64,000 bases of DNA. Source: Acidimicrobiales bacterium (GTDB taxonomy: Bacteria > Actinomycetota > Acidimicrobiia > Acidimicrobiales > Aldehydirespiratoraceae). Positions within the stretch are counted from its first letter, which is position 1. Every line of letters begins with the position of its first letter. Shown piece by piece: positions 39,685 through 45,818 of the stretch. The notes under the pieces are model-generated. The model ran no database searches. It was not told where the DNA came from and saw only the letters and a program-made list of their open reading frames with translations. The position numbers were made by a program, and so were the translations under genes. The stretch lies in assembly GCA_040219515.1 (NCBI GenBank), contig JAVJSI010000012.1, forward strand, positions 186,001-250,000. Reading direction: 5' to 3'.

Positions 39685-41157
39685 ATGAGTGCGCTCCCGG
39701 TTCATCGCTGTGCAGACATCCTCTTGGCTCCCGACGCCCGCCGCGTGATCGCGAAGCCCTTCCTTCCCGGCGACGAGGTCCTCTCGGACGGGAGATCACG
39801 CTTCGAGGTCGTCGTGGAGCGCATCCTTGCGATGGACGAGCCGACGGTTCTGTCCACGCTCGGCTCGGTCCTCGCGGAGTTCGCTGGTCGTCACCGCGAC
39901 CTCGACGCTGTTCTCCGCTCCAATTTCGACCTCGCCGCCGAACGGGTCGGGCTCTCCGACGTTCTGTCCGCCGAACGTGAGCTGTTGCTCGGCGCGTACT
40001 TCTCGCACGAGTACTCCATCGAGGCTGCCGCGCTCGGCAATCCGTCGATGGTCGCGGCCCCCGACCAAGCGGGATTGGGGCCGGGTGAGACGCGATTCAT
40101 CATGAGCCTCCGAGCGGTCGGCGAAGGTCACATCTCTTCGATCGAGTTCCGGTCGGGTGTGATCGCCGCCGATTCCCACATCCGTGTCGACGCCGCCCGG
40201 CCGTTCGCCGAGACCGGGGCTCGATTGGAAACGAAGTACAACAAAGACTTCTTCGAAACGAAGCTGTACGAACTCGGTGCGATGAACCCATTCGCGCGGG
40301 GGGTCCTCGATGCCGTGGGCTCGCGTTTCGCCATGCCCGAATTGGCGGCCGCACTTCGGCGCCTCGAGAAGGGTGTCGACCATGCGACGGTGGTGGAAAC
40401 GAGTCATGTCCTGCACTGGCTCGCATCGTCGAACTATCGAATCGCGTTTCCGCCGACGAGCGACATCTCCGAGCGGGTGATCTTTCCGCGGGGTCCGACC
40501 GAGAGCCACGGCATGGAAGACGTGCGCCTGGTCAGGTTCGTACACGACGACGGACGGGTCGTGTACTACGGGACCTACACCGCGTTCGATGGTCACCAGA
40601 TCCTGCCCCAGCTCATCGAAACCGACGACTTCTCGACCTTTCGGATCGCCACCCTTCGAGGCCGATGCGCTCAGAACAAGGGCATTGCGCTGTTCCCCCG
40701 GAAGCTGGACGGCGAGTTCGTGGCGCTCGGCCGGCAGGACAACGTCAACAACTTCCTGATGCGGTCGCCCGACATCCGCGTTTGGCACGAGACCGACAAG
40801 ATCCAGGAACCCAAGCAGCCGTGGGAGCTCATCCAGTTGGGCAACTGCGGATCACCGCTGGAGACCGACGCGGGATGGCTCGTCGTCACCCATGGGGTCG
40901 GTCCGTTCCGTCGCTACAGTCTCGGCGCGTTGCTCCTCGATCTGGATGATCCCAGTCGGGTGATCGGGCACCTGAAGGAACCGCTTCTCACACCTGCGGA
41001 CGATGAACGCGAGGGCTACGTGCCCAACGTCGTCTACTCCTGCGGCAGCATGATCGTCGGCGATCGCCTGATCCTGCCCTACGGCTTCGCCGACGTGGGT
41101 GCCCGGATCGCGACGGTCCGGGTTGACGATCTCCTCAGCCGGTTGACCCAGCCGTAG
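39685..41157 (+). CDS. glycoside hydrolase/phosphorylase family GH130-like
   Basis: 490 residues from ATG 39685 (AGGGATATCCGCTG upstream). The five-bladed propeller shows in ESHGMEDVRLVRF (GH130 EDPR-like site), YYGTYTAFDGHQILPQLIET, RGRCAQNKGIALFPRKLDG, and LGNCGSPLETDAGWLVVTHG. GH130 enzymes phosphorolyse or hydrolyse beta-mannosides. The extra N-terminal ~150 residues are typical of one unassigned GH130 group. Its 3' end overlaps the GH5-like gene by 23 bp, convergently. Confidence 0.82.
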   Translation: MSALPVHRCADILLAPDARRVIAKPFLPGDEVLSDGRSRFEVVVERILAMDEPTVLSTLGSVLAEFAGRHRDLDAVLRSNFDLAAERVGLSDVLSAERELLLGAYFSHEYSIEAAALGNPSMVAAPDQAGLGPGETRFIMSLRAVGEGHISSIEFRSGVIAADSHIRVDAARPFAETGARLETKYNKDFFETKLYELGAMNPFARGVLDAVGSRFAMPELAAALRRLEKGVDHATVVETSHVLHWLASSNYRIAFPPTSDISERVIFPRGPTESHGMEDVRLVRFVHDDGRVVYYGTYTAFDGHQILPQLIETDDFSTFRIATLRGRCAQNKGIALFPRKLDGEFVALGRQDNVNNFLMRSPDIRVWHETDKIQEPKQPWELIQLGNCGSPLETDAGWLVVTHGVGPFRRYSLGALLLDLDDPSRVIGHLKEPLLTPADDEREGYVPNVVYSCGSMIVGDRLILPYGFADVGARIATVRVDDLLSRLTQP

Positions 41158-42292
41158 CGCCGTCACGGCGGTAGCGCTGGTAGAGCCGAGCCAGGTGCGA
41201 TCCGTCGTTCGTGTAGAACTCATCAGGCTCGATGTCCAACCAGCCAGTGTCTTCCGCCGGTGGTAGGTCGAGCGGACAGTTCGTCACCGCGGCCACCGAG
41301 GGCTTTGGCGTTCCGTCGGCTCGCCACATTCCGAATGACCGTTCGTGGGCAGCGTCGTCGAGCGGGGGACTGTCCCAGATGGACGGGTCGTAGTCGTTCG
41401 CGCACCAGAGCATCGCCCCTTTCGCACCGGCGATCTGAAGGTCGCGCAGGGCTCGATCGGTGAAGGCCGCCGCGGCCGCCTCGTCCACGAGAGACGTCGT
41501 CATCCCGAACTCGGTGAACACGACGTCGGCGCCGCCGCCGAGCCAACGGGTCACCCTGGTCAGGAAACCCAGGAGGTGTGCGTCGGTGGGCCCGTCCGCC
41601 CATGGTGCGTAGATCGGATAGCCGTGCATGGTGAGGAAGTCGCAGTACGCCGCCGCCTCGGCTGGACCGATCCTGCGGTCCTCCTCCAGGTCCTCCATGT
41701 GCAGCCCGATGGTCACCGCTGCGGTTCCGTCGGCCCCGCGAATCGCGTCGGTCATCTGTTCGAGCCAGGCGCGACCGGAAGCCCGATCGGGAGGGACGAC
41801 GCAGTTCGAGTTCTCGTTGCCGAGATCCCAGGCCCACAGGGCGGGGTGTCCGGCGAGCGCGCGTGCGCTTTCGCGGGCGAGCAGCGCCTGGGCGGCCACG
41901 ATCTCCGGGTCGGTGAACCAGCTCCGCAGCGTGCGTGCCGACGTCGACCCCTCGGTGACGACCCGGAAGCGTTGCGGCGTCTCGCGGGGTTCGAGCGCCC
42001 AGCCGGGGATCCAGTTCGCCCCGCTCATGTGGCCGGTGAACAGCGTCGGCATCAGGGCCAGGCCGGTGTCCGTCGCGAGGTTTGCAACGTCCACCAGGTT
42101 CTGGAGTTGCGCCGAGTTCACCATCGTCGGGCTGGGCTGGAAGTCCTCCCAGGTCAGGAAGATCCTGACCGAATCGAGCCCTGCGGCGCCGATACGGGCG
42201 AAGTCTCGGCGCACTTCCGTGGCATCGAAATGGCGCCACCAGCCCATCGCCGTGCGGGCCGGCCAGTAGTTGACGCCGACGGGAAAGGTCAC
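41135..42292 (-). CDS. GH5-like glycoside hydrolase
   Basis: 385 residues from GTG 42292, which overlaps the upstream stop (GTGA). A (beta/alpha)8 start FPVGVNYWPARTAMGWWRHFD, the acid/base Glu in WDLGNENSN and the nucleophile Glu in VVFTEFGMTTS fit clan GH-A, family GH5 or similar. TMHGYPIYAPWADGP lines the site. No signal peptide, so it acts in the cytosol, probably on the product of the neighbouring glycosyltransferase or an imported oligosaccharide such as a mannoside. Confidence 0.75.
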   Translation of the reverse strand: MTFPVGVNYWPARTAMGWWRHFDATEVRRDFARIGAAGLDSVRIFLTWEDFQPSPTMVNSAQLQNLVDVANLATDTGLALMPTLFTGHMSGANWIPGWALEPRETPQRFRVVTEGSTSARTLRSWFTDPEIVAAQALLARESARALAGHPALWAWDLGNENSNCVVPPDRASGRAWLEQMTDAIRGADGTAAVTIGLHMEDLEEDRRIGPAEAAAYCDFLTMHGYPIYAPWADGPTDAHLLGFLTRVTRWLGGGADVVFTEFGMTTSLVDEAAAAAFTDRALRDLQIAGAKGAMLWCANDYDPSIWDSPPLDDAAHERSFGMWRADGTPKPSVAAVTNCPLDLPPAEDTGWLDIEPDEFYTNDGSHLARLYQRYRRDGATAGSTG

Positions 42293-43299
42293 ACGGTCTC
42301 GGCGACCAGGCGGTCCGCATGCTGGAGAGTGGAAACCAACGCGAGGGTCGACTCGGCCCCCTGGTTCAGGTTGGCTCCCGTTGCCTGGAGGCCGTCGTAC
42401 CCACCGCCGGTCAGCGGATCCCACATCGGTGTCGCGGCATCGTTGTCGCCGGCGAACCATCGGGCCGCCAGGTCGATGCCGTGCAACCACTCCTCCGCGC
42501 CGGTCACCGCGTGAGCCCGACGACAGGCGTCGGCCATGGCTGCGACCTCGATGGGTTGTTGGTCGAATGCGGGCGCCGAGTCCGTGGGCCCGGCGCCGCC
42601 GACCGGCGTGGGGGAGAGGTGTCCATCCACCGTTTCCCGGCGAAGTAGCCATCGCAGCATCGTGACCCCGTCCTCGAGGACGCGAGGTCGGCCGAGGAGA
42701 TGGCCGGCGGCGAGCAACGCCTCGGCCAGCACCGCGTTCGCATAGTGGAGTCGTGGTTCGGGCCACGGCCAGAGGGGGTCCTCGGCGGGGGAACCGATCA
42801 CGTCGACGACGTCGTGCAACAGGTGTCGGGCTTCGTCGTGGGAGGGGTCGATGGCCAGCACCTCGGCCGCGCCCAGCGCGGCGAAGGCCATCGACCGTGG
42901 CGACGGCGAACGTTGTTGGATGCCGTGGTCGAAGTAGGCCTGGGCGCTCTGCCGTAGCCACCCCTCGGACGTGTACCGGGCCGCAGATCCGAAGGCCCAG
43001 AGGCTTCGGCCCCAGCAGTCCTCGACCGAGTACGGACCGAACCAGCCGCCGTCGGCGTCACGTCGGTTGCGGACCTTGCCGTCGGTTCCCTGGGCGTCGG
43101 AGAGAAATCGCAGGGCGGTGCGGCCGAGCTCGAGGACCGGTCCGTCGGGTTCCGGCTCTCGGGCGACGACGACGAGGAGGCGGGCGACGTCGTCGGTGCA
43201 GTAGCCGTGCTCTCGCCTCGGCACGTGGAACTCGGCATGTTCGAACAGACCGATCCGGTCGCTCATCGCCAGGAGGTGGTCGAACCGCGACGCCGTCAC
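42289..43299 (-). CDS. alpha/alpha-toroid protein of glycan operon
   Basis: 336 residues from GTG 43299, overlapping the GT stop. Starts TASRFDHLLAMSDRIGLFEH, with repeated helical hairpins: HGYCTDDVARLLVV, DCWGRSLWAFGSA, HYANAVLAEALLAAG, QQPIEVAAMADACRRAH and GYDGLQATGANLNQGAEST. Similar domains are often fused to, or encoded next to, GT4 enzymes. Looks like a six-hairpin glycosidase-like fold; catalytic residues are not obvious. Works with the GT4 and GH5-like products of the same operon. Confidence 0.7.
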   Translation of the reverse strand: MTASRFDHLLAMSDRIGLFEHAEFHVPRREHGYCTDDVARLLVVVAREPEPDGPVLELGRTALRFLSDAQGTDGKVRNRRDADGGWFGPYSVEDCWGRSLWAFGSAARYTSEGWLRQSAQAYFDHGIQQRSPSPRSMAFAALGAAEVLAIDPSHDEARHLLHDVVDVIGSPAEDPLWPWPEPRLHYANAVLAEALLAAGHLLGRPRVLEDGVTMLRWLLRRETVDGHLSPTPVGGAGPTDSAPAFDQQPIEVAAMADACRRAHAVTGAEEWLHGIDLAARWFAGDNDAATPMWDPLTGGGYDGLQATGANLNQGAESTLALVSTLQHADRLVAETV

Positions 43300-44450
43300 G
43301 GTTCGACCGTCTGGCTCTCGGCCAGCAGCCGCGTGGCCAGAGCGTCGTAGCGGCCGGCGACCGCGGTCCAGCTCAGCTCGGGTGCCAGACGCCGGGCCTC
43401 GGCCGCCATCGAGGCTGCACGGTCCGGATCGGTCAGCACGGATCGGATCGCGGCCGACATCGCGCCGGCGTCGCCCTGGGGCACCACGATGCCGGCGCCA
43501 CTGGCGAGCAGCTCGACGGCGTGGGGGAATGCCGTCGACACGACCGGCCGGCCGGCGGCGACCGCGTCGACCAGGACACCGGACGTGACCTGATCTCTCG
43601 AGTCGTAGGGCAGCACGACCACATCGGCGGAGCGGATGAGTTCGGTGAGCGACGCCAGGTCGCGATAGGTGTCGTCGAAGGAGATGTAGGGCGCGGCGGC
43701 GGAGGCGTCGGCACGGTCGATCAGCATCTGCCGATAGGACTGGCCCGACTGGGCGAGCACCTTCGGGTGGGTCGCCCCGGCGATGACATAGCGGGGAGGG
43801 GGTGTGAGGTCGACGAGGTCGGCGACCGCGTCGATGGCCCACTCGATGCCCTTGCCGGGACCGAGGAGACCCCAGGTCAGCAGACGTGGTGCTCGGGTCG
43901 CCGACGCCGAACGTGCTGTCGGCGCGTCGGCCGGCGGGGTGGCGGCGCCGTGGGGGATCACCGTTACCTTCGACGCGTCGACGTCGAAGCACGCGTCCAG
44001 GCGGATCCGAGCAGTCTCGGTCATCACCACGACGGCATCGGCTCGCTCGCAGGCTTGTTCGAGGACGAACTTCTGGTTGGCGGTGGGCGTGCTCAGCACC
44101 GTGTGGGCCACGACGATCATCGGCACGACCACCCCGGCCAAGGTGTCGAGGAGGTCGCTGCCGTCCGGTCCGCCGTACAGGCCGTATTCGTGCTGGATGA
44201 TCGCCACGTCGGTGGCGTTGAGCACCTCGACCGGCGCCGCGAAGCCGCTCGATCCGTCCACGTCGAGGGTGCCGATCACCGATGCATCCTCCAGCTTCGG
44301 GGTGGCACCGCAGCGAACGACATCGACGGTGCCGCCGTTGGCGATGACGCCGGCGGCCAGCGCCGCGGAGAAGGTGGCGATGCCGCACTCGGTCGGGGGA
44401 AACGTCGAGAGAATCCCGAAACTGCGGGGGCCCGGGGGGGAGCTGGGCAT
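43296..44450 (-). CDS. GT4-family glycosyltransferase
   Basis: 384 residues. GT-B fold: FGILSTFPPTECGIATFSAAL at the N terminus, IIQHEYGLYGG, then the nucleotide-sugar half with LTWGLLGPGKGIEWAI, and SADVVVLPYDSRDQVTSGVLVDAVAAG with the donor-binding region. The family retains configuration with GDP- or UDP-sugars. It begins the operon that continues with the toroid protein and the GH5-like enzyme, with GTGA overlaps at each junction. Confidence 0.85.
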   Translation of the reverse strand: MPSSPPGPRSFGILSTFPPTECGIATFSAALAAGVIANGGTVDVVRCGATPKLEDASVIGTLDVDGSSGFAAPVEVLNATDVAIIQHEYGLYGGPDGSDLLDTLAGVVVPMIVVAHTVLSTPTANQKFVLEQACERADAVVVMTETARIRLDACFDVDASKVTVIPHGAATPPADAPTARSASATRAPRLLTWGLLGPGKGIEWAIDAVADLVDLTPPPRYVIAGATHPKVLAQSGQSYRQMLIDRADASAAAPYISFDDTYRDLASLTELIRSADVVVLPYDSRDQVTSGVLVDAVAAGRPVVSTAFPHAVELLASGAGIVVPQGDAGAMSAAIRSVLTDPDRAASMAAEARRLAPELSWTAVAGRYDALATRLLAESQTVEP

Positions 44451-44652
44451 GGTTGACCTCCGATGTCGGCTCGGTCAAGAAGCCGGGCCTGCGGAGGGCG
44501 ACAAGCCGAGATGGCCGTCCAGCCCAAGCGGGGCACACTCTTCCAAGAGGTGACGTCACTCTACCCCGACACGTTCCGCGATCGCAGTCGGTACCGTCGG
44601 CCTTGTCACCGATTCCGATACCTCCGCCGCTCTGCCGGCTCTTCGTCTCGCG

Positions 44653-45681
44653 GTGCTCTCGCCGATTGCCTGGCGCACCCCGCCACGTCACTACGGTCCG
44701 TGGGAGCTCTTCGCCTCGATCCTCACCGAGGGCCTGGTCGCGCTCGGCCATGACGTGACGCTGTTCGCCACTGCAGATTCACTCACGCGTGGTCGGCTCC
44801 GAGCCACGGCCCGCACCGGGTGGTCCGAAGCTGACGACATCGATCCCAAGGTCGCCGAGTGTGTCCACATCGCCGACGTCTTCGAGCGCGCCGACGATTT
44901 CGACATCATCCACAACGGGTTCGACTTCCTGCCGCTCACCTACAGCGGCCTCGTCGACACCCCCGTCGTCACGACGATCCACGGCTTCTCCTCGGAACGG
45001 ATCGTGGACGTGTACGAGCGCTACGACTCGACCACCACCTATGTCGCGATCAGCGACGCCGACCGTCAACCGCGGCTGCACTACGCGGCGACGATTCACC
45101 ACGGCATCGATACCGAGGCGTTCGCCGTCGATCCCGATCCGCGAGACCACCTGCTCTTCTTCGGGCGGATCCACCCCGACAAGGGCACGGCCGAGGCGAT
45201 CGCCGTGGCCCGACGAGCGAATCGTCCACTCGTCATCGCAGGGATCATCCAGGACCAGCGCTACTTCGACGAAGAGGTCGCCCCCCACATCGACGGCGAG
45301 TCCGTCCGGTTCCTCGGTCCCGTCGGCGCCGACAACCGCGCTCGTGTCCTCGGTGGCGCGCATGCCCTGCTCCATCTCATCGACTTCGACGAACCGTTCG
45401 GCTTCAGCGTCGTCGAAGCCATGGCGTGCGGCACGCCGGTCATTGCCTACGACCGGGGATCGATGCCCGAGCTGATCGACGATGCCCAGACCGGGTTCAT
45501 CGTGCCCGACGCCGAAGGGGCTCTGGCGGCCATCGAGCGGGTCGGCGCCCTCGACCGGGCCGCCATCCGTGCGTCGACGGTCCGCCGATTCAGTTCGGCA
45601 TCGATGGTCGACGCCTATGTCGCCGTCTACCGATCGGTACTCGCCGCACCCGGACCCGCAGGCCATGCTGGTACAGCGTGA
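44653..45681 (+). CDS. GT4-family glycosyltransferase
   Basis: 342 residues from GTG 44653 (VLSPIAWRTPPRHYGPWE); no better start exists after the preceding in-frame stop, although relatives usually have a few more residues before this point. Donor-half motifs: LLFFGRIHPDKGTAEAI and the E-x7-E pair in FDEPFGFSVVEAMACGTPV. Divergent from the glycan operon across a 202-bp gap in which I see no further gene. Confidence 0.85.
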   Translation: MLSPIAWRTPPRHYGPWELFASILTEGLVALGHDVTLFATADSLTRGRLRATARTGWSEADDIDPKVAECVHIADVFERADDFDIIHNGFDFLPLTYSGLVDTPVVTTIHGFSSERIVDVYERYDSTTTYVAISDADRQPRLHYAATIHHGIDTEAFAVDPDPRDHLLFFGRIHPDKGTAEAIAVARRANRPLVIAGIIQDQRYFDEEVAPHIDGESVRFLGPVGADNRARVLGGAHALLHLIDFDEPFGFSVVEAMACGTPVIAYDRGSMPELIDDAQTGFIVPDAEGALAAIERVGALDRAAIRASTVRRFSSASMVDAYVAVYRSVLAAPGPAGHAGTA

Positions 45682-45744
45682 CGACGAACCGGATGATTCG
45701 GTCCGACCGCCACCCCTCGGACGACGTGGCGGCCGGGGTTTCAG

Positions 45745-45818
45745 TGGAGCTGATGGGAATCGAACCCACGACCCCCTGCTTGCAAAGCAGGTGCTCTAGC
45801 CAACTGAGCTACAGCCCC
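45745..45818 (-). tRNA. tRNA-Ala (anticodon TGC)
   Basis: A 74-base cloverleaf on the minus strand starting GGGGCTGTAGCTCAGTTGGC. Anticodon loop TTTGCAA within CTGCTTTGCAAGCAG gives TGC; T arm GTGGGTTCGATTCCCAT; acceptor GGGGCTG/CAGCTCC with one G-T pair. The CCA end is not encoded (CTG follows). Confidence 0.93.

Follow-up and report, generated by a model that had tools for sequence, protein, structure and literature searches.

Turnover of mannogen in Leishmania, where a β-1,2-mannan reserve is recycled by enzymes of the glycoside hydrolase family 130 (GH130) fold assigned to GT108, is the nearest known biology to the system reported here; the available text of that study (PMC8950772) describes dual transferase-phosphorylases of one eukaryotic family and mentions no partners from glycosyltransferase family 4 (GT4) or with a toroid fold. 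The nearest described gene cluster that we found is Teth514_1785-1796 of Thermoanaerobacter sp. X-514, which combines GH130 β-1,2-mannoside phosphorylases with GH5 and GT4 enzymes and GDP-mannose synthesis, and which its authors, in the portion of PMC4264767 available, read as a salvage system. Here, we analysed a 64,000-nucleotide stretch (hereafter the window, G000:C12:186001-250000, whose numbering gives all coordinates) of the 4.02 Mb genome of an Acidimicrobiales bacterium, in which a long variant of GH130 faces GT4, toroid and GH5 genes. The locus thus resembles the Thermoanaerobacter cluster in its enzymes but differs in its GH130, since both GH130 enzymes of that cluster are short and, as far as the available portion goes, a long one is not described; the cluster also includes an ABC transporter and two hypothetical proteins (Teth514_1785 and Teth514_1791).

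We estimate the probability that the locus is a cytosolic mannose-glycan module at roughly 0.6. This reading had been put forward in an initial annotation, and it draws support from the co-occurrence of the genes, the absence of evident export signals, GDP-mannose genes beside 7 of 12 plasmid-borne counterparts and the residues kept in GH130. The features concerned are as follows.

39685..41157, plus strand: GH130, long variant, 490 amino acids (PF04041), predicted β-mannoside phosphorylase
41135..42292, minus strand: GH5 hydrolase, 385 amino acids (PF00150), predicted β-mannosidase-like, local accessory
42289..43299, minus strand: toroid protein, 336 amino acids, no Pfam match, predicted toroid fold with conserved D36, D37, D302 and E316
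43296..44450, minus strand: GT4a glycosyltransferase, 384 amino acids (PF13692 and PF00534), partner of the toroid
44451..44652, no strand: intergenic region shared by the divergently oriented GT4a and GT4b genes
44653..45681, plus strand: GT4b glycosyltransferase, about 342 amino acids (PF00534), relative of the glucosylsucrose synthase TeGSS
45744-45818, minus strand: tRNA-Ala (TGC), directly past the GT4b gene

The five genes, their coordinates and their order had been set out in the initial annotation and are confirmed by the positions of the open reading frames (ORFs), with Pfam matches for GH130, GH5 and both GT4 enzymes and a structural model for the toroid. GT4a, toroid and GH5 form a minus-strand run (44450-41135) in which the GT4a stop overlaps the toroid start, and the toroid stop the GH5 start, by 4 nucleotides each; GH130 and GH5 converge with a 23-nucleotide overlap, and GT4b diverges from GT4a. 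The start of GT4b is uncertain, GTG at 44653 being the earliest common in-frame start codon, and the real one may lie upstream. The claim that export signals are absent also stands: none of the five proteins has a signal-peptide-like N-terminus. The caveat concerns GT4a, in which one internal segment, starting at residue 101, has a hydropathy in a simple scan (1.92; at most 1.32 in the other four proteins) above the level usual for membrane helices (1.6); it is presumably a buried strand of the GT-B fold.

Conservation was assessed in two samples. The first comprised 149 genomes of the phylum, own genome included. The second, called the named genomes, held the best 80 of at least 589 stretches encoding a relative of the long GH130, found by two peptide patterns; these loci come mostly from metagenome bins, contig ends truncate a number of them, and 41 have 4 kb on both sides. 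Neighbourhood was defined as within 8 kb, and ORFs in unannotated loci were called mechanically. Across the phylum sample, toroid matches occur in 22 genomes and GH130 matches in 21, with a full-length long GH130 in five (G000, G045, G086, G092 and G123). All five are among the six genomes encoding a toroid of at least 45% identity, and in each of the five the toroid, GH130 and GT4a lie in one cluster (hypergeometric p of about 1e-8, a value that, like Fisher values, ignores relatedness). The set is patchy in its own order (1 of 9 other sampled genomes), and the GH130 is the only one of its genome.

Among the matches listed for the named genomes, the closest GH130 relatives come from Acidimicrobiales and Ilumatobacter bins (69-61% identity). 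By record title the best 80 span 12 phyla, to which an Ilyobacter plasmid (Fusobacteriota) adds one more, and the phyla are partly mixed on the GH130 tree; such mixing fits transfer, though binning errors may contribute. Near the GH130 gene, a toroid occurs in 59 of the 80 loci, GT4a in 57 and GT4b in 26, while 23 loci have a second, short GH130 and 2 have GH5; the corresponding figures for the 41-locus subset are 35, 37, 16, 16 and 1. Six of the 41 have no toroid nearby (L053, L061, L071, L112, L114 and L122), yet five of these carry one elsewhere in the genome, which in the four planctomycete loci sits inside open frames of 764-939 amino acids that also match GT4a. A toroid is thus present in 40 of the 41 genomes, L122 alone being without; the search for distant toroids covered eight genomes and matched six, namely these five and L100, a positive with its toroid at the locus. 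Clustering of 309 flanking ORFs revealed no family in more than 3 of the 80 loci, ABC-type ATPases occurring in 2. The cluster is not a chance one. Co-occurrence in related genomes, on which the initial annotation had staked its proposal, is borne out and extends to unrelated genomes. The conserved five-gene set that it had expected shrinks to a core of GT4a, toroid and GH130, with GT4b an occasional neighbour and GH5 a local accessory.

The core is also held together by gene fusion. GT4a and toroid form a single ORF in 46 of the 55 loci that have both; the nine split cases are all titled Actinomycetota, a label under which one fused locus (L107) is found as well. The two genes are 5 kb apart in L048 and on opposite strands in L070. 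GT4a is likewise fused to a short GH130 in G037 and G106 (794 and 799 amino acids; L039 and L130). Such fusions are good evidence for joint action of the proteins. The L039 locus also shows a weak toroid match, which falls in the gene next to its GT4/short-GH130 fusion. GT4b is associated with the short GH130: the two appear together in 13 of the 41 loci, GT4b alone in 3, the short GH130 alone in 3 and neither in 22; the 80 loci contain 16 such pairs, nine of them with match ends at most 40 bp apart.

The long GH130 scores 90.8 bits against PF04041 (cut-off 26). Its model, built with five sequences (predicted local distance difference test score, pLDDT, 79.4), matched GH130 structures with Z up to 32.8 over 282 aligned residues, and helices at about 39-105 and 187-248 are added to the five-bladed propeller, setting the long group apart. 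The best fits were to β-1,2 phosphorylases (Z 31.2-32.8) and β-1,4 phosphorylases (28.3-31.4), followed by hydrolases or putative hydrolases (26.5-27.4) and GT108 (about 22). Eight residues, N119, R143, E278, D279 (the catalytic Asp), K332, R350, H403 and D470, are invariant in all 81 sequences from the window and the 80 loci, and E278 and K332 align with the Glu and Lys of three reference phosphorylases. In the part of PMC4599007 available, β-1,2-specific GH130 enzymes are distinguished by a Glu adjacent to the acid together with a Lys (Lys199 equivalent), and GH130 hydrolases have carboxylates (Glu) where phosphorylases have basic phosphate-binding residues. The putative phosphate-site columns (R350, Q384 and H403) were derived from the three reference phosphorylases, in an alignment that contained no hydrolase. 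The long GH130 is thus predicted to be a β-mannoside phosphorylase, probably β-1,2-specific. A hydrolase-type GH130 was rejected, R350 and Q384 being acidic in 0 of 81 sequences, with the match of these columns to the hydrolase Glu pair inferred.

GT4 enzymes retain the configuration of their donor, so that with GDP-mannose or UDP-glucose they give α bonds. The substrates of GH130 enzymes, in the available text of PMC4264767, are β-mannosides. Because of this difference, it is unlikely that the GT4 enzymes make the very bond that GH130 breaks, as had first been suggested, and that part of the proposal falls; either the glycan has both bond types or GH130 also builds. The mechanism that we propose goes beyond what was observed (gene content, co-occurrence, fusions, residues, predicted folds and GDP-mannose neighbours), in that the donor and acceptor, the type of bond, the direction of the reaction and the role are inferred. 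GT4a with the toroid would transfer mannose from GDP-mannose to a soluble acceptor and GT4b would add a further α-linked sugar. To judge by its residues, the long GH130 would reversibly exchange a β-mannosidic bond, probably β-1,2, for phosphate, and the resulting mannose 1-phosphate could return to GDP-mannose or enter glycolysis via phosphomannomutase and ManA; run in reverse, the same enzyme could add β-mannose to the glycan. The GH5 β-mannosidase-like enzyme might here do, or supplement, the trimming done elsewhere by the second, short GH130.

Both glycosyltransferases exceed the PF00534 and PF13692 cut-offs, and in GT4a T227-H228-P229 and P281-Y282/Q287/S290-G291 are kept in 55-56 of 56 sequences. 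The best solved match of GT4b is TeGSS (7fg9, E 7.1e-73), with tetrahydrobiopterin glucosyltransferases next and, among lower-ranking matches, PimA, which uses a lipid acceptor. In the alignment, GT4b keeps Tyr18, Arg179 and Lys184 of TeGSS (assuming a shift of 3 in chain numbering). GT4b is thereby a relative of the Thermosynechococcus enzyme with the same catalytic residues, and the available text of PMC9909042 gives the TeGSS product as a soluble oligosaccharide; a difference is that no sucrose-phosphate synthase gene was seen beside GT4b. Because TeGSS and the tetrahydrobiopterin glucosyltransferases glycosylate small soluble acceptors, a soluble product is favoured, and the product of the module is more likely a soluble intracellular oligosaccharide than an exported polymer.

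The toroid protein has no Pfam match at E 0.001, no NCBIfam match and no PADLOC match. Its model (pLDDT 93.9) is an (α/α)6-type toroid whose best fold match is YPO2471 (7tem; Z 35.9, 328 residues, 2.8 Å), ahead of GH9-like proteins (Z 29.6 and 29.2), AGE-type epimerases (26.8 and lower, 24-27) and GH76 (26.1). YPO2471, a solved structure with no assigned function, also matches by sequence profile (E 3.6e-23) and has the DD.AR and GAEST motifs in common; it is named a putative exported protein, whereas the window toroid lacks a signal-like N-terminus and has a GT4 partner. No paper on YPO2471 was found in the open-licence PubMed Central (PMC) literature. D36, D37, D302 and E316 are present in 57 of 57 toroid sequences, and acids so strictly kept suggest that the toroid is an enzyme with the GT4a product as its substrate. 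AGE-type sugar epimerases have a catalytic His pair; the only toroid His residues kept in at least 90% of the 57 sequences are H8 and H21. An AGE epimerase or a GH9/GH76 hydrolase is at most a tentative identity for the toroid, the likeness being in fold only. Among 15 toroids searched against Pfam with E up to 1, GH88 was matched in three (best E 2.5e-4) and C5-epim_C in four; the window toroid gave no such match. L041:8510-10693 encodes a protein of 727 amino acids that is toroid-like in part and may have a signal peptide; it lies between two GH130 matches, precedes a gene reading like a solute-binding protein and is perhaps a catabolic relative.

The GH5 enzyme scores 28.6 bits against PF00150 (cut-off 23.5), and its best solved chains by sequence include a mannanase (7bob, E 4.3e-21, residues 3-124 only), GH5_18 proteins (4.7e-17) and an exo-β-1,4-mannosidase (6gvb, 9.8e-16). 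E160 and E261, which from family knowledge we take to be the putative catalytic pair, are kept in the 60% identical homologue of L026. Close relatives are rare, occurring in 3 of the 149 phylum genomes (G000, G092 and G106), with two more at 32% identity. GH5 adjoins GT4b in L026, in L045, where 74 bp separate the matches, and in G106, where no GT4a, toroid or long GH130 lies within the 19 kb examined; GH5 and GT4b are about 2.4 kb apart in the window and in L043, which has both GH5 and a short GH130. The pattern suggests that GH5 and the short GH130 may be alternatives, both acting on β-mannosides.

Plasmids carry the module too, with toroid matches in 27 plasmid records and GH130 matches in 77. 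Twelve of the 27 toroid-matching loci were read, using PLSDB gene tables that are incomplete; 8 of these plasmids are typed as conjugative. A fused GT4-toroid gene adjoins a gene annotated as GH130 (409-479 amino acids) in 11, and the twelfth, from Deinococcus, combines GT4-toroid with GT4b and a short GH130 that lacks annotation. Genes for GDP-mannose metabolism adjoin in seven (manC in five, manA in three, manB in one), most completely in Sphingomonas bisphenolicum pBAR3, where the order is manC-manA-GT4/toroid-GH130-manB (phosphomannomutase) with overlapping ends from manA on. One of the five loci without these genes (Rhizobium) has an AGE-family epimerase gene.

The module could also be read as GDP-mannose salvage, in which imported β-mannosides are phosphorolysed and the mannose 1-phosphate is channelled into GDP-mannose and mannosylation. 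The five manC loci speak for this, as does the Thermoanaerobacter cluster, with two GH130, GH5, GT4 and a mannose-1-phosphate guanylyltransferase in the available portion of PMC4264767, but that cluster includes five ABC transporter genes, whereas no transporter family is found here in more than 2 of the 80 loci, and the frequent GT4a-toroid fusion would be left unexplained; we consider salvage unlikely. A mannan-utilisation locus was rejected on the same transporter count together with the lack of signal-like N-termini. About as improbable is a precursor pathway, in which an oligosaccharide for a glycoconjugate or cell-wall glycan would be assembled or recycled in the cytosol and exported by genes elsewhere. 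The presence of two GT4 enzymes would suit it, as would the Gene Ontology (GO) term for lipopolysaccharide or polysaccharide biosynthesis on several plasmid manC genes, but the set is compact and plasmid-borne, and no flippase, polymerase or lipid-carrier transferase is among the recurrent neighbours.

Other plasmid neighbours bear on the role of the product. In 5 of the 12 loci, genes for chaperones lie within 9 kb (GroES/GroEL or DnaK/GrpE; three loci also have Hsp20), and Dps and universal stress protein genes do so in three. The module might accordingly make a mannose-containing protectant in response to heat, salt or cold, a role compatible with a cytosolic mannose-glycan module that we consider possible, if on balance doubtful. 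GT4b is related to an enzyme making sugars seen under salt stress in cyanobacteria, according to the available text of PMC9909042; the plasmids in question, however, are mutually related, and the 80 named loci have GroEL in 1, desaturase in 4 and DnaK, Hsp20, Dps or universal stress protein in 0. On these counts, the idea that stress or desaturase genes regularly accompany the module was rejected. The stress-gene-linked modules lie on sphingomonad conjugative plasmids (L143, L145, L147, L148 and L154), an arrangement resembling a transferable stress island.

Several observations weigh against a cytosolic mannose-glycan module, or against parts of it. Three genomes break the association: G050 (L025), the sixth of those with a close toroid, encodes a 51% identical protein without adjoining GT4a and has no GH130 match, and the genomes of L122 and L046 (the latter outside the 41, with a short flank) have a long GH130 and no toroid match. 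The toroid of G050, a 7.5 Mb genome, lies near a gene reading like a desaturase. Mannose genes adjoin in only 3 of the 80 named loci, as searched by tblastn with three plasmid proteins and one further ManA (ManA adjoins GT4a-toroid in L063 and is near in L080, and L049 has a ManB-like match of 27%). The own genome has a ManA over the cut-off on another contig, and no GMP_PMI-type ManC over the cut-off, other ManC types not having been searched. The donor of TeGSS, the best solved relative of GT4b, is UDP-glucose in the available text of PMC9909042. The long GH130 reaches 133.2 of 550 bits (NF050092) and 127 of 450 bits (NF052550), far under the NCBIfam cut-offs for mannobiose phosphorylases; its fold does not separate β-1,2 from β-1,4 (Z 32.8 vs 31.4), and the bond type rests on two residues. 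Finally, the three reference phosphorylases carry R or K at the column of Q384; the 81 long sequences have Gln there in 64 cases and Lys in the other 17, and 19 short GH130s have K or R. Because Q384 replaces a basic residue, phosphorolysis may be weak, or another donor may be used.

The last point would also suit a long GH130 that is a nucleotide-sugar-dependent β-mannosyltransferase like Leishmania GT108, of the same fold, and not a phosphorylase. The extra helices, the GT108 match and the GDP-mannose genes in some operons agree with this, but phosphorylase structures fit far better (Z 28-33 vs about 22) and most phosphorylase residues are kept, so that we regard a transferase as improbable.

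The GT4a-toroid pair is not confined to GH130. In G030, G056, G090, G101 and G133 (L032, L033, L034, L035 and L037) the fusion adjoins a GH94 phosphorylase, assigned by Pfam for the L034 protein, with which the four remaining ones share 72.8-77.8% identity (a contig end truncates one of them); a long GH130 was searched for in these five genomes and not found. This exchange of one phosphorylase for another is in favour of the proposed mechanism. GT4a-toroid-GH94 could be the glucose equivalent of the mannose module. More tentatively still, the whole could be a bacterial counterpart of the mannogen cycle, that is, a cytosolic β-mannose glycan built from GDP-mannose by GT4-toroid and turned over by long GH130 in at least 12 phyla and also spread by conjugative plasmids, with the toroid a new glycan-processing enzyme and GH94 replacing GH130 for a glucose version. 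No description of a GT4-toroid-GH130 module was recognised in the open-licence PMC literature, judged mostly by the beginnings of abstracts; its enzyme families are known, except for one unclassified toroid family, and their widely kept arrangement is apparently undescribed. Its compactness, recurrent fusion and spread over many phyla and plasmids imply a common bacterial sugar, apparently undescribed. For a toroid family with no Pfam match, and for a GH130 subgroup that plasmid records call only 'glycoside hydrolase family 130 protein', the proposal offers a function that can be tested, and testing it would show whether bacteria, like Leishmania, hold an internal mannose reserve or protectant.

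An anti-phage defence role, prompted by a Pfam 'GT4-conflict' match of GT4a, was dismissed, as the four proteins submitted to PADLOC (GH5 not included) gave no match. No σ70-like promoter was found (0 vs 0.4 expected), including in the GT4a/GT4b intergenic region, and terminator-like sites numbered 2 (2.4 expected). The search for RNA elements returned two tRNAs and nothing else. tRNA genes, such as the tRNA-Ala gene past GT4b, are common insertion points for mobile DNA.

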